A stretch of DNA of 46,621 bases from a virus, in the IMG/VR virus record IMGVR_UViG_3300044713_000028, positions 1-46,621 of that record. One strand, written 5' to 3'. The translations under genes were made by a program, and so were the position numbers. The first letter of the stretch is position 1. Every line of letters starts with the position of its first letter. Below, piece after piece: positions 10,764-39,478 of this stretch. A model generated the notes under the pieces. The model made no database searches. It had not been told where the DNA came from and was given only the letters and a program-made list of their open reading frames with translations.

Positions 10764-11008
10764 AGTCTACCGGGGCCAGTCTTGTAAAGTTCGCGTACTA
10801 CGACGGAGCCAAAGAGGAAATAGTGGAATTCTGCGTATCTTCTGAATATCTGTGGAGCGCGGAGGGTTTGGCGCAACTGTATGAGGCCTGCAGAGATAGC
10901 TACCTAGGAGCAGACGTGGATATGCGGGCGTCGTGGCACCTCGCGGGAGTGGCAAACTTTGATGGCTTTGTGATAGAAGCCGACGAGGTGATAGACTCTA
11001 AGCCATGA
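10760..11008 (+). CDS. Hypothetical acidic protein (82 aa)
   Basis: GTG at 10760 overlaps the upstream TGA. Acidic, with no recognised motif. Its stop overlaps the portal ATG. Confidence 0.5.
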   Translation: MKSTGASLVKFAYYDGAKEEIVEFCVSSEYLWSAEGLAQLYEACRDSYLGADVDMRASWHLAGVANFDGFVIEADEVIDSKP

Positions 11009-17781: not shown

Positions 17782-18279
17782 ATGTTCAGGAATCCTCTGC
17801 AAGAGGGCCGCTGCGAAGCGCCCAACCAGGTATTGGAGCAAGGCGGTGCGCAGCCCCTACAGGTTGCTGTTAATCCGTCCATAACTATCCAGAGCGGGCA
17901 GCCGCTGCTGATCGGTCAGTTGGCGGCGGTGGCGATGACCAGCAATCCGCCGCTGTTGCAGCCGGGCACGTTGGCCCCGTTGCAGTTGCCCAGCACGGGC
18001 AATATCGCAGTGCTGCTGGCTGGAGTTTTCAATCTCACCGTGACGGCGAAATCTTCACTCAGCCCGAGCACGGGCAGCGCGGTGAACCCCGGCGACAAGA
18101 TCTACGCGGACGGCGGAACGCTGGACACAAACAGCAACGTGACGCTCGGTTTCACGCTGGACAAGAACACCTCGGGCGTGCTGTTCGGCTCCGCAGTAAG
18201 CGTGGGTGGCGCGGGTGGACCGCTGTTAGTTTCGGCGACGACCGGCATTATCGCGGTCAGACTCAAGGAGGGTGCATAA
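17782..18279 (+). CDS. Head decoration protein (DUF2190-like)
   Basis: 165 aa, ATG directly after the upstream stop. Repeated short beta strands and Gly-rich turns (IQSGQPLLIGQLAAVAMT, then TGIIAVRLKEGA at the end) are typical of the DUF2190 capsid-stabilising family. Sits between protease and major capsid protein, as in many siphoviruses. Confidence 0.75.
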   Translation: MFRNPLQEGRCEAPNQVLEQGGAQPLQVAVNPSITIQSGQPLLIGQLAAVAMTSNPPLLQPGTLAPLQLPSTGNIAVLLAGVFNLTVTAKSSLSPSTGSAVNPGDKIYADGGTLDTNSNVTLGFTLDKNTSGVLFGSAVSVGGAGGPLLVSATTGIIAVRLKEGA

Positions 18280-19746
18280 GTGGTTTCGTTCAATGAGGTA
18301 GTCAAAAACTACGGCGACTTCGCGAGTGCATCGCGTTTCGCAAGCCTCCCTCCGGGAATCACGATCAACAATCCCGGCGTATCCGGCGCGGCCGACGCGC
18401 GCGACATCCGCGAAGGGCTGTATACCCCTTGGCGCGGCTCGCAGACCGACAAAGAGCCGGGCATGGTTCCGGTGCGCGTTCCCGGCCAAGGCGACCCGCG
18501 GCGCGCGCTTTATGAGCGCAAACTGTTCGAGGCCAGCAAGGTCCTGAACCAGGCGCTTCGCGGCAACAAGTGGGCAATTCTGTCCATCAACGAAGCGATG
18601 AACGGGCGCCCCTTGCGAGTGACTGAGGCGCTGTCCATCTCGGATTTCCCCAACATCTTTGGCGATATCATCGACCGTGCCGTCATCGCCAATTATCGCG
18701 AGACGCCGTACACCTGGAACATGATTGCCACGCACGCCGACGTGGCCGACTTCCGCCAGGTCAAGCGCTTCAGGATTGACTACGGCACGGCGCCGAACAA
18801 CACGCCGATCGACCAGGGCGCACCGTACCCCGAAGACAAGATCTCGGATGCGGCGCAGCAGGCGGGCACGTATGTCCCTCCGGGCGCAGCCGCCGGTGTC
18901 GGGTACTACGCCTACAATCTCCAGAAGTACGGCAAGCGCATGCCGTTCTACTGGGAGACGTTCATCAACGATGATCTCAACGCCATCAAGGACGTTCCAG
19001 CGCGCTTCGGGCGCGGCATGCGCCGCGGCGAGGAGTACTTCGTCACGAATCTTTTCGCGAACAACACCAATTTCTTCAATACCGCGAACTTCAAGAACGT
19101 GGTGAGCTCGGCAAACACGCCGGGCAATGTGTACACCGCGAACAACCCGCCGCTGTCGATCACCGCACTCGCACAGGCGATGGTGGTTATGTCCCTCCAG
19201 CGCGATCTGGATGGCCAGCCGATCGACATTGAGGCTGTGACCTTGGTGGTCCCTCCGGCGTTGAAGGTGACGGCCCAGAACATTCTGAACGCCGATTACT
19301 TCTGGGCCAACGATCAGGGCGGTACGGTCATCGACCCGAGCAGCGGCGGAAACGTTTCGGCGCAGCGCTTGAATGTGGCCAACTGGGCGCGGAACATCGT
19401 GAAACTCGCCGTCAATTACTACCTGCCGATCGTGGACAGCACCTACGGCAACCAGGGCTGGTACCTGTTCAGCGATCCGAACAGCGGGCGCCCGGCGCTG
19501 GAATTCGCGCATCTTCGCGGGCGCCGCATGCCGGAACTGTTCATGAAATTACCGAACTCGGTAGCCATCGGCGAGGGCCAGATGGGACCCGGCGCAGGGC
19601 CGATGATCGGCACCACCATGCAGAATCCGATGGAGGGCGATTTCGACACCGACGCCATCCATTACAAAATCCGCCATGTTTATGGCGGTGTGCAGATGGA
19701 CCCGCTAATGGCGGTCTACAGCAACGGAAGCGGGACTGGAACTTAG
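18280..19746 (+). CDS. Major capsid protein
   Basis: 488 aa, GTG start with a perfect AAGGAGG Shine-Dalgarno 7-8 nt upstream, the strongest in the window, as expected for the most abundant virion protein. Position after protease and decoration protein and before connectors supports the call. The sequence reads like HK97-fold capsid proteins: an N-arm, a long helix near 90-130, and P-domain strands ending in GGVQMDPLMAVYS. A hairpin at 19770 follows. Confidence 0.85.
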   Translation: MVSFNEVVKNYGDFASASRFASLPPGITINNPGVSGAADARDIREGLYTPWRGSQTDKEPGMVPVRVPGQGDPRRALYERKLFEASKVLNQALRGNKWAILSINEAMNGRPLRVTEALSISDFPNIFGDIIDRAVIANYRETPYTWNMIATHADVADFRQVKRFRIDYGTAPNNTPIDQGAPYPEDKISDAAQQAGTYVPPGAAAGVGYYAYNLQKYGKRMPFYWETFINDDLNAIKDVPARFGRGMRRGEEYFVTNLFANNTNFFNTANFKNVVSSANTPGNVYTANNPPLSITALAQAMVVMSLQRDLDGQPIDIEAVTLVVPPALKVTAQNILNADYFWANDQGGTVIDPSSGGNVSAQRLNVANWARNIVKLAVNYYLPIVDSTYGNQGWYLFSDPNSGRPALEFAHLRGRRMPELFMKLPNSVAIGEGQMGPGAGPMIGTTMQNPMEGDFDTDAIHYKIRHVYGGVQMDPLMAVYSNGSGTGT

Positions 19747-19824: not shown

Positions 19825-20229
19825 ATGAGCGAGAAGCTAAAGACAGCCGGGCTGCTGGCACTCCTACTGTTCGGCGTATGGGGCATTGGCGACGGCCTGT
19901 GGAACATGCCGCGGGCGCACGCACAGGGCGGCGCATCGCAGACGGTCACGCTACCCGATATCACCGGGACGGGCGCGAATGTGTGCCTGGCAACCTCAGG
20001 TACTGCGCGCTGGATTCAGATCATCGCGCCGTCAGGAAACTCCGCTGTTGTGCGGCTCGGGTACGGGGCGACGTCATCCCGCGGTGCGGCTATCGCGGCT
20101 GGCGGTGGCTTCTTTTTCCCCCCGCTGACCCGCCAAGATCTCGCGCCGGTCCAAAATGTGTACGCACTGGCCGAGACGTGCATGTATATCGCCAACGGAG
20201 ATTCCGTGACCGTAACCTACCTGCCATGA
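19825..20229 (+). CDS. Secreted or membrane-anchored protein next to capsid genes (134 aa)
   Basis: Residues 1-35 look like a Sec signal: basic start, hydrophobic LLALLLFGVWGIGDGL, then AHAQG. The rest is beta-rich and Gly/Ser/Ala-rich (NSAVVRLGYGATSSRGAA...GGGFFFPP), similar to small structural or adhesin domains. Well-placed GAGGAGC ribosome binding site before the ATG. A signal peptide inside a head gene cluster is unusual; role unknown. Confidence 0.6.
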   Translation: MSEKLKTAGLLALLLFGVWGIGDGLWNMPRAHAQGGASQTVTLPDITGTGANVCLATSGTARWIQIIAPSGNSAVVRLGYGATSSRGAAIAAGGGFFFPPLTRQDLAPVQNVYALAETCMYIANGDSVTVTYLP

Positions 20230-24102: not shown

Positions 24103-24111
24103 TGATATAAT
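24103..24111 (+). promoter_or_regulatory. Extended -10 promoter, leaderless start
   Basis: TGaTATAAT at 24103-24111, only 7 nt before the ATG at 24119 and with no Shine-Dalgarno between. The same TGATATAATCCGC string is found at 31634 before another start. Confidence 0.7.
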
Positions 24112-24118
24112 CCGCTCC

Positions 24119-24478: not shown

Positions 24479-24849
24479 CACGCGATGAGGCGTATTGGCT
24501 CAAACTGTGGGCCTTCGGCACCAGCCCCTACGGTCTTGGCATACCCGCGCGTGAACTGTGGGGCCTGGCGCCGTGGGAATTTGAAGCGCTGCGCGATGTG
24601 TGGCACGCCAACCGCCAGCGGGAGGTGGATATGTTCGCCGGTTTGATGACCGTTCTGCACCGCGCTTGGTTCCAAGGCAAGTTCGAGCCGCAGATGTTCG
24701 GCGGTAGTGCGCCGGGCCCAGCACGGCCGGAAGACGTGTTTGGGCGGCAAACTTGGCAGGAGAAGCGTAGCATCATCCGGTCGCACTTCCGCGCGCTGGA
24801 CCCCAAGGTGATCGAAAAGAATCGGCAGAGGCTGGCCAATGGCGGATGA
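24412..24849 (+). CDS. Tail assembly chaperone, frameshift extension (gpT-like)
   Basis: Frame -1 relative to the upstream gene; 145 codons. Probably made only as the extension of the 24119 protein (about 243 aa total: 98 + 145). Helical, with KLWAFGTSPYGLGIPARELW near residues 31-50. The ATG at 24412 is at the slip point and need not be a start. Its end overlaps the tape measure start by 11 nt. Confidence 0.7.
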   Translation: MAGAARRAADSPGDGTGPSGPVTRDEAYWLKLWAFGTSPYGLGIPARELWGLAPWEFEALRDVWHANRQREVDMFAGLMTVLHRAWFQGKFEPQMFGGSAPGPARPEDVFGRQTWQEKRSIIRSHFRALDPKVIEKNRQRLANGG

Positions 24850-27196
24850 ATCCGAAGTCATAGGCCGCGTCCAGGTCAAAGTCGAGGGCAATTTTAGCCA
24901 GATGGACGCCGACTTCCAGGCGGCAGTAGCCAAGGGAGTCGCAGGGGGCCAGACGCTCGCTGAAGCCATCCAGAGCGGCATGGCTTCCGTGCCAGGCATG
25001 GCCGAACGTGCTTCGGCTTCCATTGGTGGCATCGGTACGGCGGCTGCGGCGTCTGCCGCGCAAGTCAAGATGCTATCGGCCGAACTGGACGCCACCGGCC
25101 AGAACGTGGCGTATGCCGGTGAAAACTTCGGCAAGTTCGGCGAGCAGGCTGGCGGCAGCATTCGCAGTCTAGTTTCCGAGGTCAGAGTTTTCCGGCAGGC
25201 GTTCATGGCCGTGATGTTGCCGGAAATGATAGGGCACCTCGTCTCAGGCATCGTTGAATTCTTTGAAAAGGAGAACAACGCTCTGCATGAGGCCATGACT
25301 ACATGGCGCGAATTCAACGCATCACTTCAAATAACTGACGCTGAACTGCAGGTTTCAAATGACAAGTTATCTAATCAGATAGCCAAGCTCGAAGGAGTCC
25401 CGCAGAACAATCTAAAACTGGCGCTGGACGAAGCCGCACTGTCGGCCGATAAGCTCGCCCTATCTCTCGATAAAGACAGCGATGAGATGATTAAACTTCT
25501 GGAGAAGTCGAATGCGGACTGGTTCCAGAAGATGTTCGGTACCGCATCGTTGGCACCTTTGGAGGAGGCCCTAAAGCGGATTCAGGATACCATGTCCGGC
25601 GACAAGACAGGCACCGGTCAGGCCATGATGTTACAGCGCGAATATCAGGCCGTGTCGGCTGAACTGGACAGGCTCCAAGAGAAGACGCGGGTGATTTCGG
25701 TGTCCCCCGGTGGGCGGACCATTATCGAAACAACAGTAGGGACACCTGCAGAGATTGCCGCAGCAGAGGCTGCTCTGGCCCACATCCGTGAGCAGGCCCA
25801 GCGGATTTCGGACGAGCAGACGCACGAAAGCCTGACTAGCAAGTTAGGTAAACTGCAACAGGATAACCAAGGGACTGCGGATGCGTTTGCAGAACAGAAC
25901 GAAAAGTTCCGAGAGCAGGCCGAGGCCATAAATGAAGCCGCCGAAGCGATAGAAAAAGAGGCATCCTGGCTCTCCAAGGTCAATGAGATGGCCACGGAGA
26001 CCCCTAAACTATTCGAGGAAATCGAGGCTAAGGGTGGGATCGTGGCAGAAACTCTGCGGCGAATCGCAGAGCAGGCCGCGCAGGTCCCAGCGCAGTTGAA
26101 CACGACAACCGCCGAGTCTCTCATCGCTAAACTCGTCAACGGGCAGAAGGAATTAGACGAACAGTCTCAGCAGTTAGCAAAAACCTTTGATAAAGCGTGG
26201 GACGAGTGGGAAAAAGGAGCGCAGAAGGGAGTAGTCTCAGGAGACGCGATAACAGTCACACTTCAGGAGCGATTGAGTCCGGCAATGTACGCGGCCTATG
26301 CCGACGCGACGCACCTGCGCGAGGCATTCTCGAACCTGCACATCAAAGACGCTGATGAAGAATTGGCTAAGATGGTCGCAAGCTTGCAGATTGTCGCCAG
26401 ACAGGACGGTGTGACAAGCACGGCATTCGTGCAAGGATGGCAGAATTATAGCAAAGCGCTCGCAGCGGCAGCCCAGGAAACCGGCGACTTTCAGCAGAGA
26501 CTCGCGGGCGGCGTCATGACCGAAATACCGTCGATGTTTCAGAGCATCGAGGGCGCGTTGGCGAACGATCTGGTTCACTGGAAGAATTGGAGCCAATCGG
26601 TTATCAACATATTCCAGAGCTTTGCACAAATGGCTCTCCAGACGGTGATGCACGCGCTGTTTCAGCCGCTTCAGCAGATGCTCACGGGCGCGCTGGGTGG
26701 CATCCTTTCAGGCCTATCGAGCGGTGGCGGCATGTATGCCGGGATCGCCAGCGGCGCGATCGGGTTCTTCGCAGAGGGCACAGACTACGTACCGCGCACT
26801 CAGTTGGCCGTGCTGCATGAAGGCGAGCGAGTTGTCACGAAGGAGCGCAACTTTCAGGACCGGCTGGAACAGGGCATCAAGCACCGCGACGTTTACCACC
26901 ACATGCACCGGGCGCTGGAGGGAATTGAGAACGTGCCGCGCATGATGCCGGTGATGTTGGACCCAGGCGAGCGCGTGCTGACCAAGGAATCGAACGACGT
27001 GTTCAGCAAGATGCTCAATACCAGCATGGGCACGGTGCCGTCTGTCGGACCGCAGAGCACCTACCAGAACAGCAGCAACGTGGATCACATCGACATGCGC
27101 GGAGCTACGATCATGGGCATGACGAAAGAGGAACTGGCGAGCACGATATTCGACACTGCGGTGAAGCGCGGAAGGCGAGCGAATGTACGTTGGTAG
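24839..27196 (+). CDS. Tape measure protein
   Basis: 785 aa. Mostly helical and coiled-coil (about 160-400), with hydrophobic stretches near 115-140 (FMAVMLPEMIGHLVSGIVEF) and 600-650 (MLTGALGGILSGLSSGGG). It sets tail length, roughly 0.15 nm per residue or about 115-120 nm, and lies in the tube until infection. Order and size are typical. No lysozyme-like domain seen. Confidence 0.85.
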   Translation: MADESEVIGRVQVKVEGNFSQMDADFQAAVAKGVAGGQTLAEAIQSGMASVPGMAERASASIGGIGTAAAASAAQVKMLSAELDATGQNVAYAGENFGKFGEQAGGSIRSLVSEVRVFRQAFMAVMLPEMIGHLVSGIVEFFEKENNALHEAMTTWREFNASLQITDAELQVSNDKLSNQIAKLEGVPQNNLKLALDEAALSADKLALSLDKDSDEMIKLLEKSNADWFQKMFGTASLAPLEEALKRIQDTMSGDKTGTGQAMMLQREYQAVSAELDRLQEKTRVISVSPGGRTIIETTVGTPAEIAAAEAALAHIREQAQRISDEQTHESLTSKLGKLQQDNQGTADAFAEQNEKFREQAEAINEAAEAIEKEASWLSKVNEMATETPKLFEEIEAKGGIVAETLRRIAEQAAQVPAQLNTTTAESLIAKLVNGQKELDEQSQQLAKTFDKAWDEWEKGAQKGVVSGDAITVTLQERLSPAMYAAYADATHLREAFSNLHIKDADEELAKMVASLQIVARQDGVTSTAFVQGWQNYSKALAAAAQETGDFQQRLAGGVMTEIPSMFQSIEGALANDLVHWKNWSQSVINIFQSFAQMALQTVMHALFQPLQQMLTGALGGILSGLSSGGGMYAGIASGAIGFFAEGTDYVPRTQLAVLHEGERVVTKERNFQDRLEQGIKHRDVYHHMHRALEGIENVPRMMPVMLDPGERVLTKESNDVFSKMLNTSMGTVPSVGPQSTYQNSSNVDHIDMRGATIMGMTKEELASTIFDTAVKRGRRANVRW

Positions 27197-27210: not shown

Positions 27211-29451
27211 GTGGGCAGTAACCTCCTCATTCCGCCATATAAGCCGATCCCAGACACAGCCAGCGCCTTAACCGTCTGGCTCGGGTACGTAAATCTGAAT
27301 GCCTCCATAACCGATACCGGATCGCCAGCAGTGGGCACACTGACGCTGGGCGGCGGCGGCTGGCAGGGGCTGACGGCAGAGGACGTGGGCGATATCGTTC
27401 AGGTGGTTTCCACGTCTGGATCGCCCGCCGTGACGACGGTTCTGTGGACTACTATCGCGTCCGTGACGAACTCGAGCACCTGCGTGCTGGCCGAAACCAT
27501 CGGCGATTGTACCGGCGCACAGGCCGTGGTCTACCGCCCGCTGGATGAGGTAATTAACAACCCGCTGAACTACATCTTGCAGGACTCCATCGTTTTCGAG
27601 ACGTCGATCACAACCCGTCCGACGCTGGACTTCACGACGTTCACCGGCGATCGCACGCTCATTCCGGTGGTAGGCATGCCGGTTCTGATGACCGATGCCA
27701 TGCTGGACGGATCGGTGAGTACCTACACCATCACTGGCGGGAGCGGGTACGCCGCAGGAGATTACATCGCCGTGCTCCAAGAAGGCGTGCGGTATCCCTG
27801 CATCATCCAGGTGGACGGCACCACGGGCGGCGGCGCGATTGGCGCCTCCCATATCGTGCTGACGCCGACAACGGGCGTGCCTGGCGGCTTCATGTACTCG
27901 GTGGCGAATGGCCTGACCACGGAGGCCATAACCGGAAGCGGTTCAGGCGCGACAGTGGATGTGACGGCAGTAACCGGGCCAGCGTTCGGTGCGGAGCCGG
28001 GCGATGTGTTCGGCGGCTCCATCGAACAGGTGAAGATTTATAATTACCCAGGCATGCGGCAGTTGAAGTGTGAATGCCAGTGCGTTTCCTGGGACGCCAT
28101 TCTGAACCGGCGCGTTCTCGGGCTGACTCCCGCTTTCCCGGTTTCCAGCACCACCCTGAGCTACAACGGCGGACAGCAGTCGAACGGCTATAGCCCGGTA
28201 TACGGATATCAGCGGTGGTTCAACCTTGGCAGCCCGCCTCCGGTTGCCATTATCGAGGTTACCCTGAACGGCACGCCGCAGAGCGTCGGACCAGCAACCG
28301 CGCTGCCTCCGGTTGGCGCGGGCGGTTTTGAGTGGTACTGGAGTTTTGGGTCGTTCCAGCTATATGAGGACCCCAGCGGCCCGACGCTGACTGATGGTGA
28401 TGCGGTGGTAATAACCATCCAGTCCGTGCAGCCGCAGGCGCCGAACGTCACCTACCAGAATCAGCCGGCGGACCAGATCGTAGAGGCGGTGATTTCCTAC
28501 ATTCAGGACAGCGAAGGAATCACGCTGGCCAATATCGTCGGGTCGATCACCGAATCTCCGCTTGTGCCTGTGCCTACGGTCAATTCGATCACGTTTTTGG
28601 CTAACCAGACCGTTGATGAGGCGCTTTCCTCGCTGATGACCTACATCAACGACGGCAGCACGAATTTCTGGTATTACCTGGACCCGCGGAAGGGCCTACA
28701 CTTTGAAATTCTGGGTATCACGACGGCTGCGCCGTGGAACATCTCGGAAGCGGATGGCTCAGACGGAAACGTGCAGTCGATGGTATCCGCCCTGACCACA
28801 CGGGAGAAGTACGCCAACGCCGCATGGATCAATTCGCAGGGGATTCTGCCGGCGGTCACGCAGGTATTCAGCGGGAACAGCGAGGCCACCACCTTCAACG
28901 TTTCGTATCCGGTTGGATCGCAGCCGACCATCCTGTTCGGCGCCGGACTGCCGAATCCGCTCCCGTCCGCTTACCAGAACCCGCCCGCGCCCTACGTTTT
29001 CGGTTCTGTAACCTACCCGGAGACGCAGACCGTTGGCGTACTAGGTGACAGCGGGTTTCAGTGGTACTGGGACGCTGGAAGCAACACTATAACGCAGGAC
29101 GGCTCCTACCCGCCGATCAGCGACACGGAGGCCATCTGGGTAACGTATAACCCGGATATCGGGCAAATCTCACCGTACCCGAATCCCACCAGCATCCCGG
29201 ATAGCACCATGATCGCGCGGCAGCAGGTGGAGGGCGGATCGGGCGAATATGACCTCACCATAGACTTGACCGACCAATTACCCTTCACGCAGGGAAGCGC
29301 CGGGCAATCCGCCGCGGTCAAGTCAATCGCGCAGACCCTGGCCGAGTACTTCCAGAACATGGCGCAAGAGGTGGAGGTGGACAGCTACCGGCCTGGACTA
29401 GCTCCGGGACAGTCGATCATCATCGGCATAACCGGAGTGGCGGGCGCCTGA
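27211..29451 (+). CDS. Large distal tail protein (746 aa)
   Basis: GTG start 14 nt after the tape measure stop. Almost entirely beta-strand and Gly/Thr/Ser-rich with repeated short domains, and one helical segment near 450-490 (QIVEAVISYIQDSEGI). Probably the tail-tip hub/central tail protein by position. No enzymatic motif found. Confidence 0.65.
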   Translation: MGSNLLIPPYKPIPDTASALTVWLGYVNLNASITDTGSPAVGTLTLGGGGWQGLTAEDVGDIVQVVSTSGSPAVTTVLWTTIASVTNSSTCVLAETIGDCTGAQAVVYRPLDEVINNPLNYILQDSIVFETSITTRPTLDFTTFTGDRTLIPVVGMPVLMTDAMLDGSVSTYTITGGSGYAAGDYIAVLQEGVRYPCIIQVDGTTGGGAIGASHIVLTPTTGVPGGFMYSVANGLTTEAITGSGSGATVDVTAVTGPAFGAEPGDVFGGSIEQVKIYNYPGMRQLKCECQCVSWDAILNRRVLGLTPAFPVSSTTLSYNGGQQSNGYSPVYGYQRWFNLGSPPPVAIIEVTLNGTPQSVGPATALPPVGAGGFEWYWSFGSFQLYEDPSGPTLTDGDAVVITIQSVQPQAPNVTYQNQPADQIVEAVISYIQDSEGITLANIVGSITESPLVPVPTVNSITFLANQTVDEALSSLMTYINDGSTNFWYYLDPRKGLHFEILGITTAAPWNISEADGSDGNVQSMVSALTTREKYANAAWINSQGILPAVTQVFSGNSEATTFNVSYPVGSQPTILFGAGLPNPLPSAYQNPPAPYVFGSVTYPETQTVGVLGDSGFQWYWDAGSNTITQDGSYPPISDTEAIWVTYNPDIGQISPYPNPTSIPDSTMIARQQVEGGSGEYDLTIDLTDQLPFTQGSAGQSAAVKSIAQTLAEYFQNMAQEVEVDSYRPGLAPGQSIIIGITGVAGA

Positions 29452-30155
29452 TGCCGATCACCTTCGTGCAGGCCAATCAGGGGTACGCCGTTGAGCCGGT
29501 AGCCGTCCCATTCCTTTCACCCAACACAGTCGGGAATATGGGCGTGTGCTTCGTCTTTGCGGATTCCATCGCCGATACGACCGTCACCGATTCGCAAGGA
29601 AACACCTGGTGTAACATCAACGCCTTTGGCGACAATACCGTGTACTTAGCGGCCTTTGTCTGTGCCAGCATGGCAGGCGGCCCGAACACCGTTACAGTAA
29701 CGTATGGCGGCGGCGCTGTAACGCTGGTGGTTCACATTATGGAGTACCAGTGGACCTATCCGGCTGAGATCATGGCGCTGCAACCGTACATCCAGGACGA
29801 CCCCTTTGTCACCTACTCATGGGGCATCCTTGGCGGGTACGAGTGGGGCGAGAGCGCTACGCCGATCCAGATTTATTACAACAGCCAAGCGGGGCAAGCG
29901 CAGAACGATGTGACGGTGACCATATTTCTCGGTCTGCTCGACACGGCCAGCATACACGGTTGGGGGGATTTTGGATTCGGCAACCCGCGCACGCAGACAG
30001 AGCTTGATGGCGAATCCTACGCCGCGGGCGAATATTCTGTGGCGACGGATGCCACGCAAACGATGTTTCTCCCCGGCTTCTCAGTCATCTATCCGCCTGG
30101 GCCGCAGACACAGCCCACTACGACCTGGCTGGCGTTCATGGTGGTGGAGGGATGA
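29451..30155 (+). CDS. Tail-tip beta-sandwich protein (234 aa)
   Basis: ATG sharing a base with the upstream TGA. Starts TFVQANQGYAVEP then NTVGNMGVCFVFADS, with a DSQGNTW motif, a pattern shared with the next gene (TVTDSQGNTW vs SVTDDNGNTY). Probably an adhesin-like or tail-tip component. Cys content is low. Confidence 0.55.
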   Translation: MPITFVQANQGYAVEPVAVPFLSPNTVGNMGVCFVFADSIADTTVTDSQGNTWCNINAFGDNTVYLAAFVCASMAGGPNTVTVTYGGGAVTLVVHIMEYQWTYPAEIMALQPYIQDDPFVTYSWGILGGYEWGESATPIQIYYNSQAGQAQNDVTVTIFLGLLDTASIHGWGDFGFGNPRTQTELDGESYAAGEYSVATDATQTMFLPGFSVIYPPGPQTQPTTTWLAFMVVEG

Positions 30156-31012
30156 GCAGTTTTACCATCGCGCAGACAGCCACGAACACGGGCGGCCAGG
30201 ATTCCAGCGATGTCACCTTCATCGCTGCGAATACCGCTGGCAACCTGATCGTTCTGTGGTACTTCGGCGGATTCAACTATCCGGGCACCTTCCCGACGTC
30301 GGTTACCGACGACAACGGGAACACCTACTCGCTGGCCGGTAGCATTCTGATCGGCTCGCCCAACACCGCATCGGCAAACCGCGTTTACATTGCGACGAAT
30401 ATCAAGGTGACGCCGAACAACCCGATCACCATCACGGTGACCGGCGCAACCGGCGTGCCGGTAGGTAGCCCGAGCCTCATCGCTGTCGAGATCACCCCGC
30501 CGTACTCCTTCGAGATCTATGCGGCGTGCGTTTCCGAATATCCGGCGACCGTGAAGGGGCAAGCGACGTTCTATGCTGGATCACTGGCGTCCGTAGGCAC
30601 GTTCACACAAACCCTTACCCTCGGCGCGAGCGGCGGAAACGAGGCTGGCGCTAACCTGGGTGTAGTCTTGACGAATCCCGGCAAGGATTCCATCTACCTG
30701 CTGGCCGACTATGACTATGAGGACTCGCCTGACACTTGGACGACCAGCGGCACACTGGTTGCCTACACCCAGGAAACCGGGACCGGCATAACCTACTGGC
30801 GTACGGCCGCCGTCGCTTCCCTGGCAGTCGAAATGTCAACGGAGGTGTGCGGCTACCTGCCGACCCCGCCGCCGAGTCTCGGTACACAGTTTTTGGTCCA
30901 GAGCATTCGACTGACGGATAAAAATCGCCTGAAATCCTACAAGATTACCTGCATAGCAGGGGCGACGGTCGGTAATTGGTTGACGGCTTTTAAGTTTTTC
31001 ACCGGCAGCTAA
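30152..31012 (+). CDS. Tail-tip beta-sandwich protein, paralogue (286 aa)
   Basis: ATGA-coupled. First ~115 residues parallel the previous protein (SSFTIAQTATNTGGQDSSDVTF..., DDNGNTYS), then a longer beta-rich C-terminal part ending GNWLTAFKFFTGS. Receptor-facing tail role inferred. Confidence 0.55.
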   Translation: MSSFTIAQTATNTGGQDSSDVTFIAANTAGNLIVLWYFGGFNYPGTFPTSVTDDNGNTYSLAGSILIGSPNTASANRVYIATNIKVTPNNPITITVTGATGVPVGSPSLIAVEITPPYSFEIYAACVSEYPATVKGQATFYAGSLASVGTFTQTLTLGASGGNEAGANLGVVLTNPGKDSIYLLADYDYEDSPDTWTTSGTLVAYTQETGTGITYWRTAAVASLAVEMSTEVCGYLPTPPPSLGTQFLVQSIRLTDKNRLKSYKITCIAGATVGNWLTAFKFFTGS

Positions 31013-31056: not shown

Positions 31057-31641
31057 ATGTCTAAGAAAATAACTGCCTCTATACAAGAGAGAATCCGTAA
31101 CACGATAGCTATCGACGATTCTGGATGCTGGATTTGGAAGGCATCTGTTGGGCGGTCCGGCTATGGGCGCCTGAGGATGGGAGGAAAGACCCGGGAGGTT
31201 CATCGGCTGGCCTACGAGGCTTATAGGGGGCCGATTCCAGAGGGACTAGAGATAGACCATCTCTGCCGCGTTCGCCGTTGTGTAAATCCCGATCATCTGG
31301 ACTTGGTGACGCACGCTGAAAACGTGCGCCGTGGTCTCGTTGGTTCACGAGAGCGCTCGCGCACGCACTGTCCTTACGGCCACCCCTACGATGAGTCCAA
31401 TACGTACGTGAAGGGCGGCGGACGTCACTGTCGGGCATGCAAGGCGCGTCGTGCGGCCGAAGTAAATCGCCGCAAAGTAGAAGCGAATGCGGCGAAAGGC
31501 CCACGTGTAGCCTGTCGAAGAGGCCATCTGTACGATGTAGAAGCACCAGAAGTTTCTGGATTAAAGCGCTATTGCAAGGTCTGTCAAAAGATGAAAATGC
31601 AGGAATGGCTGGCGCGGCGCAAGTCCGAATGTGTGATATAA
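31057..31641 (+). CDS. HNH endonuclease (no. 3) with two zinc modules
   Basis: 194 aa from ATG 31057. HNH core: GCWIWKA at 23-29, EVHRLAYEAYRG at 47-58 (His49), LEIDHLC at 64-70 (Asp67, His68), CVNPDHLDLVTH at 75-86 (His80). Then two zinc units, HCPYGHPYD...CRAC and CRRGHLYD...CKVC. The upstream codons back to TTG 31021 are the promoter itself, so the ATG is chosen. Sits between tail-tip and secreted-protein genes; probably mobile. Confidence 0.85.
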   Translation: MSKKITASIQERIRNTIAIDDSGCWIWKASVGRSGYGRLRMGGKTREVHRLAYEAYRGPIPEGLEIDHLCRVRRCVNPDHLDLVTHAENVRRGLVGSRERSRTHCPYGHPYDESNTYVKGGGRHCRACKARRAAEVNRRKVEANAAKGPRVACRRGHLYDVEAPEVSGLKRYCKVCQKMKMQEWLARRKSECVI

Positions 31642-31642
31642 T
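31634..31642 (+). promoter_or_regulatory. Extended -10 promoter of the secreted-protein operon
   Basis: TGaTATAAT at 31634-31642 inside the last codons of the HNH gene, 6 nt before ATG 31649. No -35 or Shine-Dalgarno is obvious. Same string as at 24103. Confidence 0.65.
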
Positions 31643-31648
31643 CCGCGC

Positions 31649-32347
31649 ATGCGGCTATTGGCGCTTTGCGCGGTGCTCACGGGGATAGCGGCGGCGCAGT
31701 ACAGCCCGCCAGGCGGAGGCGGCAGCGGGGCGGGAGTTTCCAGCGTCCACGGCACGGCCAACCAGATCAGCACCAGCGGCAACACCGGCAGCGTAACCCT
31801 CAGCGTGCCGAGCCCGTTCGGAGTCGGCCCGAGCGCGCCAGCGATAGATGCCTTCACGGGAAATGCTGGGTCGATAGCCCAAAGCCTTGGGACCGTGACC
31901 GGATCATGCGATCCCGGGACAATGCTCATCGCCGGGAACTCCGGGACGAATCAGGCTGAAATTTGTGTAAATGGATCAAACTTCGTTCCTCTCCAGCCCT
32001 ACCATTCCATCAGTTTCCAGCTTGTGCCGAGCGCTACCGGCGACCAGGGCGTATACGCGGCGTTCCCTTTTGCCTGTAACGCCATTCTCGGGTGGACGAT
32101 AGCCTCCCAGAGCGGCACTTCCGGCTCGATCAGCATCTCGCTTTACAAGGCAAATGGCGCGATTCCGACGACTGGCAGCACGCTTGTGACAGCATCGGCG
32201 CCGATCGTGCTTTCTTCCGCAAATTGGAATTCGAGCACGTCGGTAGGCACCTGGGTAACAGCCATCGCTCCGGGAGATACGTTTCTGTTCGACGTCACGT
32301 CATATTCCACGCTCACCGGCGTGAATGGGACGGTGTACTGCCAATGA
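31649..32347 (+). CDS. Secreted beta-rich protein (232 aa)
   Basis: Residues 1-16 are a short Sec-type signal (RLLALCAVLTGIAAAQ), followed by a Gly-rich linker and a Ser/Thr/Gly beta domain (SISFQLVPSATGDQGVYAAFPF...). Likely tail-associated adhesin or exported protein. First gene after a leaderless promoter; ATGA-coupled to the next. Confidence 0.6.
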   Translation: MRLLALCAVLTGIAAAQYSPPGGGGSGAGVSSVHGTANQISTSGNTGSVTLSVPSPFGVGPSAPAIDAFTGNAGSIAQSLGTVTGSCDPGTMLIAGNSGTNQAEICVNGSNFVPLQPYHSISFQLVPSATGDQGVYAAFPFACNAILGWTIASQSGTSGSISISLYKANGAIPTTGSTLVTASAPIVLSSANWNSSTSVGTWVTAIAPGDTFLFDVTSYSTLTGVNGTVYCQ

Positions 32348-33837
32348 GGCTCCTGCTGGTCACCCTGCTGTGTGTGAGGGCCTTCGCCGCTGTTTCTGCG
32401 ACCACTCAATTCAACGTGCGCCAGGACGGCTCTGATACGAATGGCGGCGGGTTCGATCCCACCGTAGGATCACCGGGCACGAATGAGAGTCTGGCAGCGT
32501 CCGGCACTTCGATGACCGTGGTGGTCGGCGCCACCACGACACAAGGAACCGCGACACCAGCATTCAGCGCCACCACACACGGGCCGGGAAACCTAATGCA
32601 GATAACCTCGGGGAGCGGCTGTACGACGGGCGTGTTCCTGGAGCTATCGCAATCTGGCGGAACGGCGACATTTGATCGCTCACTTGGGAGCGCTGCCAGC
32701 GTTTGCACGGCGACTATCGGGGGGGGCTACGCAACCATCGCGGAAGCCTTGACCCAGGTGGGCAATTCGGGACAGCAGCATCAGGTTGTATGGGTGTGCG
32801 GTACGTGCGGTACAGGAACGTTCTCGATATCAACCGTGCTCAGCGTGAGCAGTGAGATTAACCTGATAGGCTACAGTTCCACGCACGGAGACATAACCCC
32901 GGCCTGTATCGTAGCGACAACCTGCACGCGCCCAACAGTCGAATCAAATACGGCGAGTGTAAATATGTTCCAGCCGAGCGGTTACTGTTGGATCGTGAAT
33001 GGGCTGAACATAGTGGCACAAACGAGTTTCACGCAGTACGCCTTTTTGCTCGGTGACAGCGCCTGTCTCACTCTCATAAATACCCGCGTGGCTGGAAACG
33101 GGGCAAGCAACACCGTCGCTATTGACGCCTACCACTCCCAGGTAACTATAGTCCTGCAAAACTCCGAGATTTACAACTGGAATTATGGGATTGCCTCCTC
33201 GTCCAACAATAGTTCGGCCAACACAGTGACCGCCATCGGCTCTTATATCCACGGAAATACCTACGGCCTGACCGATGCGGATCAACAGGGAAGCGGAAGC
33301 CCGTACACCTGGGTGTCGATCAACTCAGTTTGGGATTCAAACGGCTACGGATGGTACATGCAGGTTAACAACGCCGGGCTGAATTCTCAAATGATCGCCG
33401 TCAATAGCGTGTTCAGCAACTCCACACACGACGGTATCAACAGCCAGTCGGCATTCGCGGCCAACGGCGACCTCAATATCTATGGCACCAGCATCTTTTG
33501 GGGAAACGGCGGATATGGCGTCAATGTGCCATTCTCTGGCGGCTGCCTCCCGGAAGTAGGCAACTACGGGCAGACGGCCTACAATAACGGCGTCGGGAAC
33601 AACACCAGCGGGAATTATAATTGCGTTACCAGCGTGGGCGACGTGAGCCTGTCGAGCACCAGTCCGTTTTTCAATTCCAGCAGCGGAAACTTCGCGCTCA
33701 CGACGGCCGCCAAGACTTCCCTGGGTGCGGCCGGATTCCCCGGCGCTGCGCCTTTTGGCACGGGCTACGCGGCCATCGGCGCGTTACAGCCTGCTGCCGG
33801 CGCGAGTGGCCCTACTGCTTTCGTGTCTGTCCAATGA
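32344..33837 (+). CDS. Secreted parallel beta-helix protein (497 aa)
   Basis: Signal-like N-terminus (LLLVTLLCVRAFAAVSA), then FNVRQDGSDTNGGG and regular short strands with Asn/Gly/Ser turns through residues 100-430 (LINTRVAGNGAS, IYNWNYGIASSSNN, YIHGNTYGLTD), the pattern of pectate-lyase-like or tailspike beta-helices. It may bind or cleave surface polysaccharide. The signal peptide is unusual for a tailspike. No catalytic motif assigned. Confidence 0.65.
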   Translation: MRLLLVTLLCVRAFAAVSATTQFNVRQDGSDTNGGGFDPTVGSPGTNESLAASGTSMTVVVGATTTQGTATPAFSATTHGPGNLMQITSGSGCTTGVFLELSQSGGTATFDRSLGSAASVCTATIGGGYATIAEALTQVGNSGQQHQVVWVCGTCGTGTFSISTVLSVSSEINLIGYSSTHGDITPACIVATTCTRPTVESNTASVNMFQPSGYCWIVNGLNIVAQTSFTQYAFLLGDSACLTLINTRVAGNGASNTVAIDAYHSQVTIVLQNSEIYNWNYGIASSSNNSSANTVTAIGSYIHGNTYGLTDADQQGSGSPYTWVSINSVWDSNGYGWYMQVNNAGLNSQMIAVNSVFSNSTHDGINSQSAFAANGDLNIYGTSIFWGNGGYGVNVPFSGGCLPEVGNYGQTAYNNGVGNNTSGNYNCVTSVGDVSLSSTSPFFNSSSGNFALTTAAKTSLGAAGFPGAAPFGTGYAAIGALQPAAGASGPTAFVSVQ

Positions 33838-33995
33838 GATTCGCTCTTATATTCGCGATGCTGGTGTGGGGCAACGGCCCGCAGGAGCCGCCGAATCTTT
33901 GCGAGCAGTGCCGGATTCTCGGTGGACAGTGCATCGACGGTAGTTGTATACTTGCAAGACCGCACCGCGCGCCGGTACGGAATGGAGGACGATGA
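33834..33995 (+). CDS. Small secreted Cys-rich peptide (53 aa)
   Basis: ATGA-coupled on both sides. Hydrophobic start (FALIFAMLVW) then CEQCRILGGQCIDGSC, four cysteines like a small disulfide-bonded fold. Function unknown. Confidence 0.55.
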   Translation: MRFALIFAMLVWGNGPQEPPNLCEQCRILGGQCIDGSCILARPHRAPVRNGGR

Positions 33996-34291
33996 AACGA
34001 TACTGGAAGGTCTTGATTGCGGCCCTGGCCGCGCCGATTCTCGCCGTTGCGATTGTGGCTGCTATGCCCCCGCCCACCTGTGTACCGTGCCAGTGTTGCA
34101 ACTGCGCGTGGTACGCCTGCGTGTTCGATTGCTGCTGGGGGCCGTGCTCGGATGTTCAGAAGCGGGCGGCGGCAGATATCAAGTGGGCACCATCCTTCGC
34201 GAGACCGCTCGCAATGAAGGCTATCATGCTGGATTGGCGCTTGCATTACGGCGTGGTCGGCATGCTCGGTTTCGGAGGTAAGCAAAAGTGA
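33992..34291 (+). CDS. Membrane-anchored Cys-rich protein (99 aa)
   Basis: From ATG 33992. Hydrophobic stretch KVLIAALAAPILAVAIVAA (about 6-24) then CVPCQCCNC...CVFDCCWGPC, nine cysteines within about 25 residues. Suggests an exported metal- or disulfide-rich protein. No family recognised. Confidence 0.5.
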   Translation: MKRYWKVLIAALAAPILAVAIVAAMPPPTCVPCQCCNCAWYACVFDCCWGPCSDVQKRAAADIKWAPSFARPLAMKAIMLDWRLHYGVVGMLGFGGKQK

Positions 34292-34611
34292 AAGCGAACC
34301 GACTTCTATTGGCTCTTGTGGCTGTTCTGGTGGCGGCTGTCGGCTACCTCGGGTGGTATGTCAAGACTATGCCGTGTTGCCGTCACGAACGGGCCGCTTC
34401 AAAGGTGGCCGTGAGCGGATCGTTTTACGAGTGCCCCTATGCTCTGGCGAAAAAGCGGCCGGTTCAGGTAGCCTCGGATCATCTCGGCGCGAGAATCATC
34501 CCGGTGTGTCACGGGCCGGGCCCGTGCCCCGCCCCGAATTGCCGCAGCGGGTGCAATGACGATCCCAACACGTGCGGATACAACGGCTGCACGTGTGGCA
34601 TTAGCGAGTAA
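34288..34611 (+). CDS. Membrane-anchored Cys-rich protein (107 aa)
   Basis: GTG start coupled to the previous gene. N-terminal helix RLLLALVAVLVAAVGYLGWYV (5-25), then ten cysteines, mostly in the C-terminal third (CHGPGPCPAPNCRSGC...CGYNGCTCG). Similar layout to 33992, different sequence. Confidence 0.5.
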   Translation: MKANRLLLALVAVLVAAVGYLGWYVKTMPCCRHERAASKVAVSGSFYECPYALAKKRPVQVASDHLGARIIPVCHGPGPCPAPNCRSGCNDDPNTCGYNGCTCGISE

Positions 34612-34628
34612 AGGAGGAAGTAAAAACG

Positions 34629-34835
34629 ATGACGATGACCCTGAAGATGGCAGCGGCAACGCTGCTGGTTGGCGCGGCCCTGGCGCTTGCACATGGCCCG
34701 AGCTTCCCGCCCGATCCCTGGTGTGGCCGCATTCAGACGCAAGCCGTTCCGGTGCGCCCCACTCCAAAACCCGTTCCTATTGTGTTCTGCGTGCAAAACC
34801 CGCCGTTCTGCGTCGATATCACCATCGGCAGATGA
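34629..34835 (+). CDS. Small secreted Pro-rich protein (68 aa)
   Basis: Perfect AAAGGAGGA Shine-Dalgarno upstream. Signal KMAAATLLVGAALALAHG, then a Pro-rich region with three cysteines (PFCVDITIG end). ATGA-coupled to the next gene. Confidence 0.5.
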   Translation: MTMTLKMAAATLLVGAALALAHGPSFPPDPWCGRIQTQAVPVRPTPKPVPIVFCVQNPPFCVDITIGR

Positions 34836-36208
34836 TCCGGCGTATCACATTCGCGTCCCTGTTCCTCGCAGCCGGTCTGTACGGTCAATGCAGCTGCTCG
34901 TCACAGGCCGGCTGCAGTTCCATTTACAGCGGCGGTACGCCGACGCTGGCTACCTTCGTGGCCGATACCTGCGCGAGTTATGCCGCCGAGTACACGGCCA
35001 TCGCAAACAAGCCTCAGCCGAAGATTGTCCTGCAATGCCTGCTCGTGCCTGCGGCGGGCGCGTGGATCGCCACCGGGGTATCAACCTTCGGGCCAGCAAT
35101 CAATCAGTACATGGACCTGAATGCGGAGAGCGGATGCTCGCAACAGTTCGTGAACAGTTTAACGACCGCATGGTCTTGCGATGCGAGCTACTCAGCCTTT
35201 GCCAACGCGCAGGGAGTGCCGAACAACATCGGGTGCGATTGCGCGGGCGGGGGCACTCTCACGCCAAACGCCACGCCACCGGGCGGAAGCGGCCCGCACT
35301 GTAACACCCTGCACTACTACGATCTGATGAAGTCTCACGCCACCAGCACGAGCGTAACGCTGGTAAGCGGGTTCTATCCGAGCGGCGACTTCGCCACGTC
35401 ATTCAGTCTCACGCCGGGTACGGCCACGCCAGCGCAGTACATCGCCGCTATGGTTCCGCTGGCACAGGCGGCATTCACGCGCATGGGTTCATCCTTCGCC
35501 ACGCGCGCCACGGTCTACGAGGAGCCTCTCGAGGGGATGTTGGCGTGGGATTTTTCGGTTTCGCAGGTGACGACGATCATCGACGCGATGGCGGTTGCTA
35601 TCAAGGCGATCCAGTCGGGAACGCAGATATCCGCCGCAGCGACGGTTTCAGACTTCAATTACTGGACTGCGTGGCAATCGGACACGAACCTCAATGTTCT
35701 CTCGCTCGATGTGGTCGGCTCGTCCTGCAATCCGGCCGCGAACCAGTGGTATACCTACCTCGGCACGATGACGACTGACTTTGTCAAGACCACGAGCAAG
35801 AACATTTACATGGATCAGGGGCAATGGCCGTTCTTCTGTCCGAGCGCAGGAGCGCCCACCGAATCAAATTCCTACCTCGGCGTGCTCGATACAGCGTGGT
35901 CCGGGAACTGCGCGAGCAATCCGAACTCCTGTACGGGACTGGCGAATGAAGGCCAAGACGTGTTGGCGAAGTGGGCGAGCGTGAATGGCCTGAAATCTGT
36001 AACGGCGCCGTACTGCAATCTGATGTTCTACTTTTATACGAGCAATCAGAGCAACGACCACTGCTCGACCGGCTCTGCCAGCGGGACGGCCATGTCTTCG
36101 CTATCAGCCACGGATGCCGCAAATAACTGGCTGGCGCTGAGCAATTGGAATTTTGGAGTTACGATATCGAAAGTGGTGGCGAGTGGCGCTACCGTATCAG
36201 GAAAATGA
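34832..36208 (+). CDS. Secreted barrel-like protein, possible glycoside hydrolase (458 aa)
   Basis: ATG 34832, signal LFLAAGLYGQ. A Cys-rich N-terminal ~150 residues, then alternating strand-helix segments: TLVSGFYPSG, ATVYEEPLEGMLAWD, IIDAMAVAIKAIQSG, NLNVLSLDVVGSS, NIYMDQGQWPFF, SYLGVLDTAWSG, LMFYFYT. This resembles a TIM-barrel hydrolase with Glu in VYEEPLEG and Asp in YMDQG as possible catalytic residues. No family named. It could be an exported wall or glycan hydrolase. Confidence 0.5.
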   Translation: MIRRITFASLFLAAGLYGQCSCSSQAGCSSIYSGGTPTLATFVADTCASYAAEYTAIANKPQPKIVLQCLLVPAAGAWIATGVSTFGPAINQYMDLNAESGCSQQFVNSLTTAWSCDASYSAFANAQGVPNNIGCDCAGGGTLTPNATPPGGSGPHCNTLHYYDLMKSHATSTSVTLVSGFYPSGDFATSFSLTPGTATPAQYIAAMVPLAQAAFTRMGSSFATRATVYEEPLEGMLAWDFSVSQVTTIIDAMAVAIKAIQSGTQISAAATVSDFNYWTAWQSDTNLNVLSLDVVGSSCNPAANQWYTYLGTMTTDFVKTTSKNIYMDQGQWPFFCPSAGAPTESNSYLGVLDTAWSGNCASNPNSCTGLANEGQDVLAKWASVNGLKSVTAPYCNLMFYFYTSNQSNDHCSTGSASGTAMSSLSATDAANNWLALSNWNFGVTISKVVASGATVSGK

Positions 36209-36579
36209 AAACACTTCTCGCAATCCTTCTATTTGCGGCTTCTGCCATCGCGCAGACCAACCCGCATTCGGTAACGCTGACGTGGACATACATTCCGGGA
36301 GCGGGCACCTTCCCGGCGTCAGGCTTCCAGGTGCTTTCGGCGCCGTGCGCCACCACGGCATGCAACGGGCCCGGAACGTTCACGAACCTGGCTACGGTCG
36401 GTCCAACGGTGCTGACCTATGTGGACACTTCCGCTCAGGTGGTGGCTGGCGCGACGGTGTTCTACGAGGTGGAGACTACATCGACAGGAGGTAATTCATC
36501 GCCCAGCGCTGTTGTCAGCGCGGCGATCCCCTTTTCCTTGCCAGCCGCACCCGCTACTCTGCAGGCTGTTCCCAAATAG
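36205..36579 (+). CDS. Secreted fibronectin type III-like protein (124 aa)
   Basis: Signal LLAILLFAASAIAQT, then HSVTLTWTYIP and YVDTSAQVVAGATVFYEVETTS, the two hallmark strands of FnIII domains. Often binds sugars or cell surfaces. Ends the operon before the terminator. Confidence 0.65.
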   Translation: MKTLLAILLFAASAIAQTNPHSVTLTWTYIPGAGTFPASGFQVLSAPCATTACNGPGTFTNLATVGPTVLTYVDTSAQVVAGATVFYEVETTSTGGNSSPSAVVSAAIPFSLPAAPATLQAVPK

Positions 36580-36662: not shown

Positions 36663-37811
36663 CTAATAACTGATCGCTGTCACCATCCCATCTGTGCCGC
36701 TGGTGTAGGCTACGCGGTTCGTGCCGTCCACCGTGACGTATACGGCGTGCGCCACAGTGATTCCAGGCTGAACATTTCCGGGATACGGCCACGTGCCGCC
36801 AGATGCCGGTGCGAAGATAACTTGATTGGGGCCGGGAGGATTACCTGGAACTGCGTCGTCGTAGGTGGTCATGACGGAGATGTAAATGGTGTGGTGCGGG
36901 TCGAATGCCTGCCCGGTGGCGTAGTTTGGCTCCAGCGGGTAAGTGTTCATGTAGGCGTCAATGTTGTAATTGAGCCACGCAAACCCCTGTTGACCAAATG
37001 GAGGCGAGACGAGCCAAGACCCTCCGTACCCGTTCGGTAGTGGTTCGCTCTGGGCTAGGATCTGCTCGCCGTACCCGGTAACCGAGACGGGCTTAAGCAT
37101 TGGCGTGGGGACGAAAAGCCCGTTTTCCCCCTCGATGGTTGCCGTATTTCCTGGAAACCAGCCGCCGCCGCCTTGAATGCAGCGTGTGCCGAGATCGTAA
37201 TACCACCAGTCTGACACTTGATGCCCGTTGAGTGATCCAACGGCGGTGACCATAAGGCCGGTGTCGCCATTGCAGATCGGCATATAGGAGGCGTTCTGGA
37301 TCGTGTATCCGTCTGGCGTGCTCAACTGTTTGATAATTCCCTCTTGGTCCGTCTTGATCGACCACTCGACAAGCACGCCTCCCGAGGTGATGAAGGCTAT
37401 GCGGTCGGTGGCGTCAACTGAGATCGAGTATGGCCCACCGTTCGCGATAACGCCGGTCCAGACCTGATAGTTCGCCTGTCCTTGCGTCTGGACTGAGGAG
37501 GTCATGCTGAACACGGAAATGTAACTCACTCCGCTGTTTGTGCCGATGCACCACAAGTTGTTAAATAACGTGTCCACGTCGCAATCCTGCGGCGTCGATC
37601 CCATGAACTGCTCGAATAGAGGCGCGTGCGTCGTGGTCGATACTGCGGTCATCGACTGGCCGTAGGAACCGACCCACACCACCGAGTCGGACGGATCGAA
37701 AAACGCGAATCCGGCTCCGGGTACGCTCGTACTCCATTGAATCGCCGGGTTTATAGCCGCCGCGCAAACGAGCGCGGACAGCAGGAACAGTACTACCGTC
37801 TTGGTTCTCAT
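36663..37811 (-). CDS. Secreted beta-rich protein, minus strand (382 aa)
   Basis: ATG at 37811 after AAAAGGAAAAG. Signal VVLFLLSALVCAAA (5-18). Rest is beta-strand repeats with Trp, Gly and Tyr (VVWVGSYGQS, RIAFITSGGVLVEWS, WWYYDLGTR, FAWLNYN) with spacing like a beta-propeller. No blade motif proven. Transcribed against its neighbours with its own promoter and terminator, so probably an acquired accessory gene. Confidence 0.6.
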   Translation of the reverse strand: MRTKTVVLFLLSALVCAAAINPAIQWSTSVPGAGFAFFDPSDSVVWVGSYGQSMTAVSTTTHAPLFEQFMGSTPQDCDVDTLFNNLWCIGTNSGVSYISVFSMTSSVQTQGQANYQVWTGVIANGGPYSISVDATDRIAFITSGGVLVEWSIKTDQEGIIKQLSTPDGYTIQNASYMPICNGDTGLMVTAVGSLNGHQVSDWWYYDLGTRCIQGGGGWFPGNTATIEGENGLFVPTPMLKPVSVTGYGEQILAQSEPLPNGYGGSWLVSPPFGQQGFAWLNYNIDAYMNTYPLEPNYATGQAFDPHHTIYISVMTTYDDAVPGNPPGPNQVIFAPASGGTWPYPGNVQPGITVAHAVYVTVDGTNRVAYTSGTDGMVTAISY

Positions 37812-38973: not shown

Positions 38974-39225
38974 ATGTCATTTTGGTCAACACTTGAAGCC
39001 GATGTAAACAAGGGCCTGGAAGTCGCCGCGGGCGTTGTGGGCGTATTCGCGCCACAGTACGGGCCGCTGCTCACCGATATCGCGGAGGTCATCAGCGATA
39101 TTGAAACCGTTTTTGCCAAGCCGGTCACGTCTGTGCCGGAAGCCGCCGTCAGTGCCGCGGTGCAAAGCGTGGCGCACGTGAGCGCGATCAAGCAGGCGGC
39201 CGCGGCCAAATCACCTGCGTCTTGA
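38974..39225 (+). CDS. Hypothetical hydrophobic-patch protein (83 aa)
   Basis: ATG 38974 after AGGAGAAACGA. Helical, with a moderately hydrophobic stretch (VAAGVVGVFAPQYGPLLTDIAEVI). A holin-like role has been considered but it has no clear transmembrane helix; placed just before the two small membrane genes. Confidence 0.5.
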   Translation: MSFWSTLEADVNKGLEVAAGVVGVFAPQYGPLLTDIAEVISDIETVFAKPVTSVPEAAVSAAVQSVAHVSAIKQAAAAKSPAS

Positions 39226-39332
39226 AGCGGCTGGCCCTGTGCATCCTGGTGGTGGCTGGAATCGCGCTGGCAGCGATTAAGGCGCTACCGCTGGTGATTA
39301 TATGGTACATCCTGCACCACGCCATCTATTGA
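39222..39332 (+). CDS. Small one-helix membrane protein (36 aa)
   Basis: TTG start coupled to the previous stop (TTGA). KRLALCILVVAGIALAAIKALPLVIIWYILHHAIY is almost entirely hydrophobic after a basic start. Could be a short holin-like or spanin-partner peptide. Overlaps the lipoprotein gene in another frame. Confidence 0.5.
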   Translation: MKRLALCILVVAGIALAAIKALPLVIIWYILHHAIY

Positions 39333-39478
39333 TTGCTACTGCGCTGCTGCTGACCGGATGTACCGCATTCCACCGCATAACCAAAGTTCCGGCACCCGTG
39401 CCGCACGTATGCCAGACGTACCCGGCGTACTATGATCCGGGATGCTGCCCGAGCGATGACGGAGTGCATTGTAAGTGA
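39302..39478 (+). CDS. Small lipoprotein, possible outer spanin (58 aa)
   Basis: ATG 39302 gives basic residues, then LLIATALLLTGC with the lipobox LTGC (Cys20). The mature peptide is short, Pro- and Cys-rich (PAPVPHVCQTYP...CCPSDDG). Overlap with a membrane protein gene in another frame is the Rz/Rz1-type arrangement, but the partner is short. Lipobox argues for a diderm host. Confidence 0.6.
   Translation: MVHPAPRHLLIATALLLTGCTAFHRITKVPAPVPHVCQTYPAYYDPGCCPSDDGVHCK

Follow-up and report, generated by a model that had tools for sequence, protein, structure and literature searches.

A predicted Sec-exported fiber and spike cassette in a soil-type phage genome and its counterparts in other phage lineages

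The phage genome analyzed here (hereafter the window, an entire IMG/VR virus record of 46,621 bases from a soil-type virus of bacteria) contains a run of adjacent genes whose products resemble fibers and spikes and start with predicted Sec signals. As a conservative conclusion from sequence comparison, at least six apparently unrelated phage lineages (the window clade, L030, L038, Tunturi_1/2, L051, and ctLwi270) carry a fiber/spike cassette predicted to be exported by Sec. Going further, we favor tentatively, at somewhat below an even chance, the interpretation that the run is a late cassette of virion-type proteins which are exported by Sec, used outside the cytoplasm, and probably joined to particles at lysis. 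Tailed phages assemble in the cytoplasm, and their fibers lack export signals; in the open-access literature covered, we know of no exported fiber shown to join a virion.

If correct, the recurrent addition of Sec signals would mean that some phages assemble in two compartments or that they release exported spikes acting at the cell surface, and both readings can be tested now in the cultured phage Tunturi_1. The question is relevant to host-range prediction, to the phages of Acidobacteriota, and to phage annotation, which currently overlooks such signals.

Results

Genomic context of the signal-bearing run

The window encodes a large terminase (3040-4317), a portal (11005-12945), a capsid/protease region (16114-19746), a major tail protein-like gene (in the frame at 22573), and a protein of probable tape-measure size (24839-27196). 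Three signal-free tail proteins, T1-T3 (27211-31012, plus strand), lie directly upstream of the cassette region, and an HNH endonuclease gene (31057-31641, plus strand) is located between them and gene A. No tRNA genes were found in the window. The portal has only distant matches among named phages, the best at about 32% identity. Searching bacterial genomes with the capsid protein revealed no relative, IMG/VR scans with the single proteins G, T1, and A gave no matches, and a full IMG/VR scan with B gave only two weak matches, on contigs with apparently unrelated genes, which were set aside.

All eight consecutive genes A-H (31649-36579, plus strand) were called signal- or anchor-led, as proposed in the initial annotation, and so was gene I, which adjoins them on the minus strand. 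The calls were made with a hand-written rule, not with SignalP, requiring a positive n-region, a hydrophobic core, and small residues at -3/-1; shuffled N-termini were called positive in 3-24% of shuffles. By this rule, the n-, h-, and c-regions typical of Sec/SPase I substrates are present in A, B, D, E, F, G, H, and I, while C has an anchor with an unclear cut site; D and E may instead stay membrane-anchored without cleavage. The stop-start coupling described earlier for most of the genes is seen at six of the seven junctions, as 4-nt ATGA or GTGA overlaps, with a 17-nt gap between E and F.

Gene A (31649-32347, 232 aa) encodes a signal peptide (cut near GIAAA/QY; slashes mark predicted cut sites throughout), a Gly-rich linker, and fiber-like repeats; the C-terminal ~90 aa weakly resemble phrog_35197, which is also matched (2e-6) by the signal-bearing protein L030a. 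B (32344-33837, 497 aa) combines a signal peptide (RAFA/AVSATTQFNVR) with membership in the GSDTNGGGF beta-helix spike family. The next three proteins are small and, as noted initially, Cys-rich: C (33834-33995, 53 aa, N-terminal hydrophobic anchor, 4 Cys), D (33992-34291, 99 aa, signal/anchor, 9 Cys), and E (34288-34611, 107 aa, GTG start, signal/anchor, 10 Cys). F (34629-34835, 68 aa, signal peptide ALALA/HGP) is small and Pro-rich, G (34832-36208, 458 aa) has a signal peptide and 16 Cys, H (36205-36579, 124 aa, signal peptide AIA/QTNP) is FnIII-like, and I (36663-37811, 382 aa) has a signal peptide. The FnIII-like character attributed to H agrees with a PHROG match to tail protein J (E 2.9e-4). 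The barrel-like fold suggested for G found no support in its AF2 model (pLDDT 30), and its assignment as a barrel or glycosidase was dropped. Support from codon usage is good for A, B, G, and H and weak for D and F; for C and E the scores are negative, and their status as genes therefore relies on overlap and position. Pfam gave no family matches for A, B, D, F, H, and I, and only sub-cutoff matches for C, E, and G; no homology to Lom-like outer-membrane beta-barrels was found in A-I.

Signal or anchor calls were obtained for 9/9 genes in A-I and for 2/59 predicted genes elsewhere in the window (Fisher p = 1e-9, a value that exaggerates the surprise because the region was chosen for this very feature). 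The clustering of signal-bearing genes is real. The premise of the initial annotation, namely that phage tail fibers normally need no export and that the products of A-H are exported, is borne out as far as prediction goes, and the signals are not due to chance. The two signal-positive genes outside A-I are located at 19825-20229 (plus strand), directly after the major capsid gene and encoding a 134-aa protein (PRAHA/QGG), and downstream, at 39222. In the latter region (39222-39478), a short signal/TM protein is overlapped by a small Cys-containing lipoprotein-like ORF, and the pair possibly represents spanin-like lysis genes.

The start of gene A

An extended -10-like site, TGATATAATCCGC (31634-31646, plus strand), lies directly before A and overlaps the HNH gene at its end; there are 6 nt from TATAAT to the ATG and neither a Shine-Dalgarno nor a -35 sequence. 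A second copy of this 13-mer, at 24103-24115, precedes an ATG at 24119 (7 nt from TATAAT), again without a Shine-Dalgarno sequence. The leaderless promoter assumed earlier is present as a site and has a counterpart at a second leaderless start, but it is not conserved in the relatives. TGATATAATCCGC is possibly a leaderless late promoter of the window phage; since the HNH stop codon is only 7 nt upstream of A, translation of A by reinitiation from the HNH gene is possible as well.

Gene B and signals prepended to a spike family

The search with the N-terminus of B, which contains an A-x-S-A...R..GSDTNGGGF block, identified the GSDTNGGGF spike family, whose members are located among phage genes. 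In an alignment of nine members, built from DNA references, window B, L030, and L038 are extended at the N-terminus by the signal, which the other six rows lack. Seven loci are signal-free (L029, L033-L037, and L039, the last a Gemmataceae MAG) and start directly, for example with M-ALSANTVFEVR. The predicted cuts in the signal-bearing proteins (RAFA/AVSATTQFNVR in the window, RAFS/AISAQSVFEVR in L030, and GLFA/AIAANTIWEVR in L038) place the end of the prepended signal exactly at the position of the start Met of the other members. A fourth case, CFA/T-MSSSIIFEFR, was found in L051, a phage contig from a genome drawn from the same phylum as L039, and there the old start Met is apparently retained. 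Fiber-like genes adjacent to the family member in L030, L038, and L051 also carry signals. In L039 (11479-14754; Planctomycetota MAG), three genes with signals, one of them Cys-rich, lie after the signal-free family spike. Cys enrichment in the window proteins was considered as proof of periplasmic folding and rejected, because signal-free members of the B family are Cys-rich, too.

Modeling gives weak support to the beta-helix proposed for B: strands at residues 120-330 are mostly above 70 in the AF2 model, but the mean pLDDT is 55, and the matches of the model in PDB are weak (only E>0.005) and comprise PL6 lyases and the Sf6 tailspike.

Relatives of the window phage

Two IMG/VR contigs, G003 and G008, were identified as relatives; the major capsid protein of G003 is 82% identical to that of the window. 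After their capsid gene, the relatives encode a signal-bearing 601-aa fiber-like protein (MKLAIITVLMPLALVA/QPQ) and a homologue of G (about 30% identity) with its own signal peptide (MPVKVLALLTFLPLAAMA/QC). The same slot is occupied in the window by the signal-bearing protein at 19825-20229. T1 is homologous to a 910-aa tail protein of the relatives, which has no signal and a long C-terminal extension; its stop is overlapped by the start of a signal-bearing 850-aa fiber-like protein (GTGFLNA/QTGG), without the HNH gene that occurs at this point in the window. The 850-aa protein is followed in G008 by two further signal-bearing proteins, of 91 aa and 763 aa, and the contigs end there. The 763-aa repeat protein matches PHROG virion structural protein (2e-25, 1e-21) and tail spike (4e-14) families. 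The last 41 residues of T3 share 58% identity with the inner C-terminal part of the 910-aa protein, and T2 together with most of T3 looks like an insertion near the end of T1.

Cultured phages and other virion proteins

The cultured phages Tunturi_1 (PP887698) and Tunturi_2 (PP885685) were isolated on Tunturiibacter psychrotolerans, a member of the Acidobacteriota. Both have signals on gp12 (1190 aa), gp13 (675 aa), gp14 (919 aa), gp16 (149 aa), and gp17 (1184 aa), of which gp14 is annotated as tail spike or pectin lyase and gp17 as virion structural. The genes form one run, mostly overlapped, with the small gp15 in between. In the structural region of Tunturi_1, four of the proteins exceeding 300 aa have a fiber-like composition (Gly+Ser+Thr+Asn at least 37%, charged residues at most 8%), and these are exactly the signal-bearing ones, so that no obvious signal-free receptor-binding protein remains. 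Given that Tunturi_1 was isolated on T. psychrotolerans, we infer that its receptor-binding protein is plausibly among these four. No signal-bearing fibers were found in the scanned regions of Tunturi_3, 4, and 5; since Tunturi_3 was isolated on the same strain as Tunturi_1, such fibers are a trait of the phage and not a requirement of the host. The main text of the Tunturi paper does not mention signal peptides, tail fibers, spikes, or mass spectrometry. Another Tunturi_1 product, gp78 (L058:4745-5947), annotated as 'tail protein', is predicted to be a lipoprotein (LTGC lipobox) and contains a Pro-rich linker.

Predicted signals are also found on other virion parts. L051 encodes a signal-bearing neck protein that matches phrog_3287 (virion structural, 1e-21) and phrog_578 (head closure Hc3, 4e-8), and its gene overlaps an SU10-adaptor-like gene; all four homologues checked (HMO-2011, MaAM05, ctLwi270, and ct7ZZ929) lack the signal. 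A further signal-bearing protein of L051 weakly matches the XM1 gp53 minor capsid protein (5e-4, under the Pfam cut-off). In ctLwi270, a GenBank phage, signals are present on an 846-aa fiber-like and a 263-aa lectin-like protein.

Most predicted signals in Tunturi_1/2, G003/G008, and the window have cut sites exposing Gln at +1. For the window phage, this fits Acidobacteriota as hosts but is not decisive, as signal peptides of Bacteroidota follow the same 'Q-rule' (PMC5837995).

Discussion

We favor the assignment of the window proteins to exported virion parts because a signal has been prepended to families that are signal-free in other phages, because the cassette occupies the fiber slot and is coupled to tail genes in the relatives, and because Tunturi_1 has no other fibers and the L051 neck protein bears a signal. 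Under this scheme, A-H would be produced late in infection by coupled translation; host SecYEG would translocate them through the inner membrane, and signal peptidase I would remove the signals, leaving B with the same mature end as its signal-free cousins. Trimeric beta-helix and fiber proteins with small Cys-rich partners would then fold in the oxidizing periplasm, and lysis would merge the compartments, allowing the spikes to bind particles that had left the cytoplasm spike-less. Alternatively, the spikes might remain at the cell surface and bind or cut glycans there. Late addition is physically reasonable, given that P22 tailspikes are the last part added and can bind particles in extracts. 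Signals (by rule), clustering, the family membership of B, exact prepending, the fiber slot, and recurrence, including in cultured phages, can be read from the sequences, whereas export, cleavage, trimers, disulfides, and attachment at lysis are what we infer from them. Against such a role, the signal-free 910-aa tail protein kept by the relatives indicates that the receptor-binding protein may not need export. A broader proposal, which we regard as possible but hold with less confidence, is that some tailed phages build two-compartment particles, with heads and tail cores made in the cytoplasm and spikes, fibers, and sometimes neck or decoration proteins passing through Sec into the periplasm to be joined at lysis; in this view, virion genes that already existed acquired a signal peptide on several independent occasions.

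The initial annotation regarded the run as an exported module that may remodel or decorate the host surface. Its prediction of export stands, but a non-virion toolkit is less supported, since the proteins belong to or resemble virion fiber/spike families and lie in the fiber slot; action at the host surface, alone or in addition, is possible. In its strict form, with the proteins as effectors outside the virion that coat, cut, or mask host surface glycans (for superinfection exclusion, reduced re-adsorption to debris, or matrix clearance), we consider this a strong rival, although less probable than the favored reading. The strong clustering of signals, the plain meaning of an export signal, the PL6 lyases and Sf6 tailspike among the weak structural matches of B, and the availability of the signal-free tail protein of the window clade as a candidate receptor-binder all agree with it, as do precedents in phage lambda and Porphyromonas phages (PMC12309495; PMC10367356). 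However, the same families are signal-free in other phages, L051 bears signals on neck and minor-capsid-like proteins, and Tunturi_1 would have no evident receptor-binding protein left.

The N-termini might also serve a purpose other than export: they may hold or anchor the proteins so that assembly takes place at the inner membrane, or another protease may remove them. Core virion proteins with such N-termini do exist in L051, and the predicted signals on capsid proteins of Porphyromonas phages were argued to be removed by the prohead protease (PMC10367356), but the textbook n/h/c regions with SPase sites and the predicted cut of B exactly at the family N-terminus make this improbable. We give still less credence to captured host genes (morons), i.e., secreted host proteins mainly serving the host lifestyle: the signals look host-typical, many being cut before Gln as in Tunturi phages, NTASG-repeat proteins are known in bacteria, too (Hymenobacter plasmids), and A-H have no Pfam match above cut-off, yet B-family members sit among phage genes, and the cassette is coupled to tail genes and recurs at the fiber slot.

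Phage-encoded proteins with Sec signals have been described before. Lambda Lom has a signal peptide, and its gene is located between the tail spike and tail fiber regions (PMC12309495), whereas Porphyromonas phages encode signal-bearing proteins of unknown function proposed to modify the host envelope (PMC10367356). The window proteins share the Sec signal with both; however, Lom is a membrane beta-barrel, and neither it nor the Porphyromonas phage proteins is a fiber or spike. With tailspikes of the P22/Sf6 type, B may share a parallel beta-helix, predicted from a low-confidence model that gives weak fold matches to the Sf6 tailspike, but those tailspikes have no signal peptide, and the resemblance would be one of fold rather than of sequence. 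The run gp12-gp17 of Tunturi_1/2 differs from A-I in surrounding gene order and shows no homology to it at E 0.01 (all-against-all blastp); both are nevertheless sets of adjacent, mostly start-stop overlapped genes in the structural region, mixing large fiber/spike-like proteins with small ones, nearly all signal-bearing. GSDTNGGGF family members of uncultured tailed phages, such as L034-L037, have the N-terminal motif, repeat region, and C-terminal end in common with B; they lack its signal peptide and begin directly at the mature residue.
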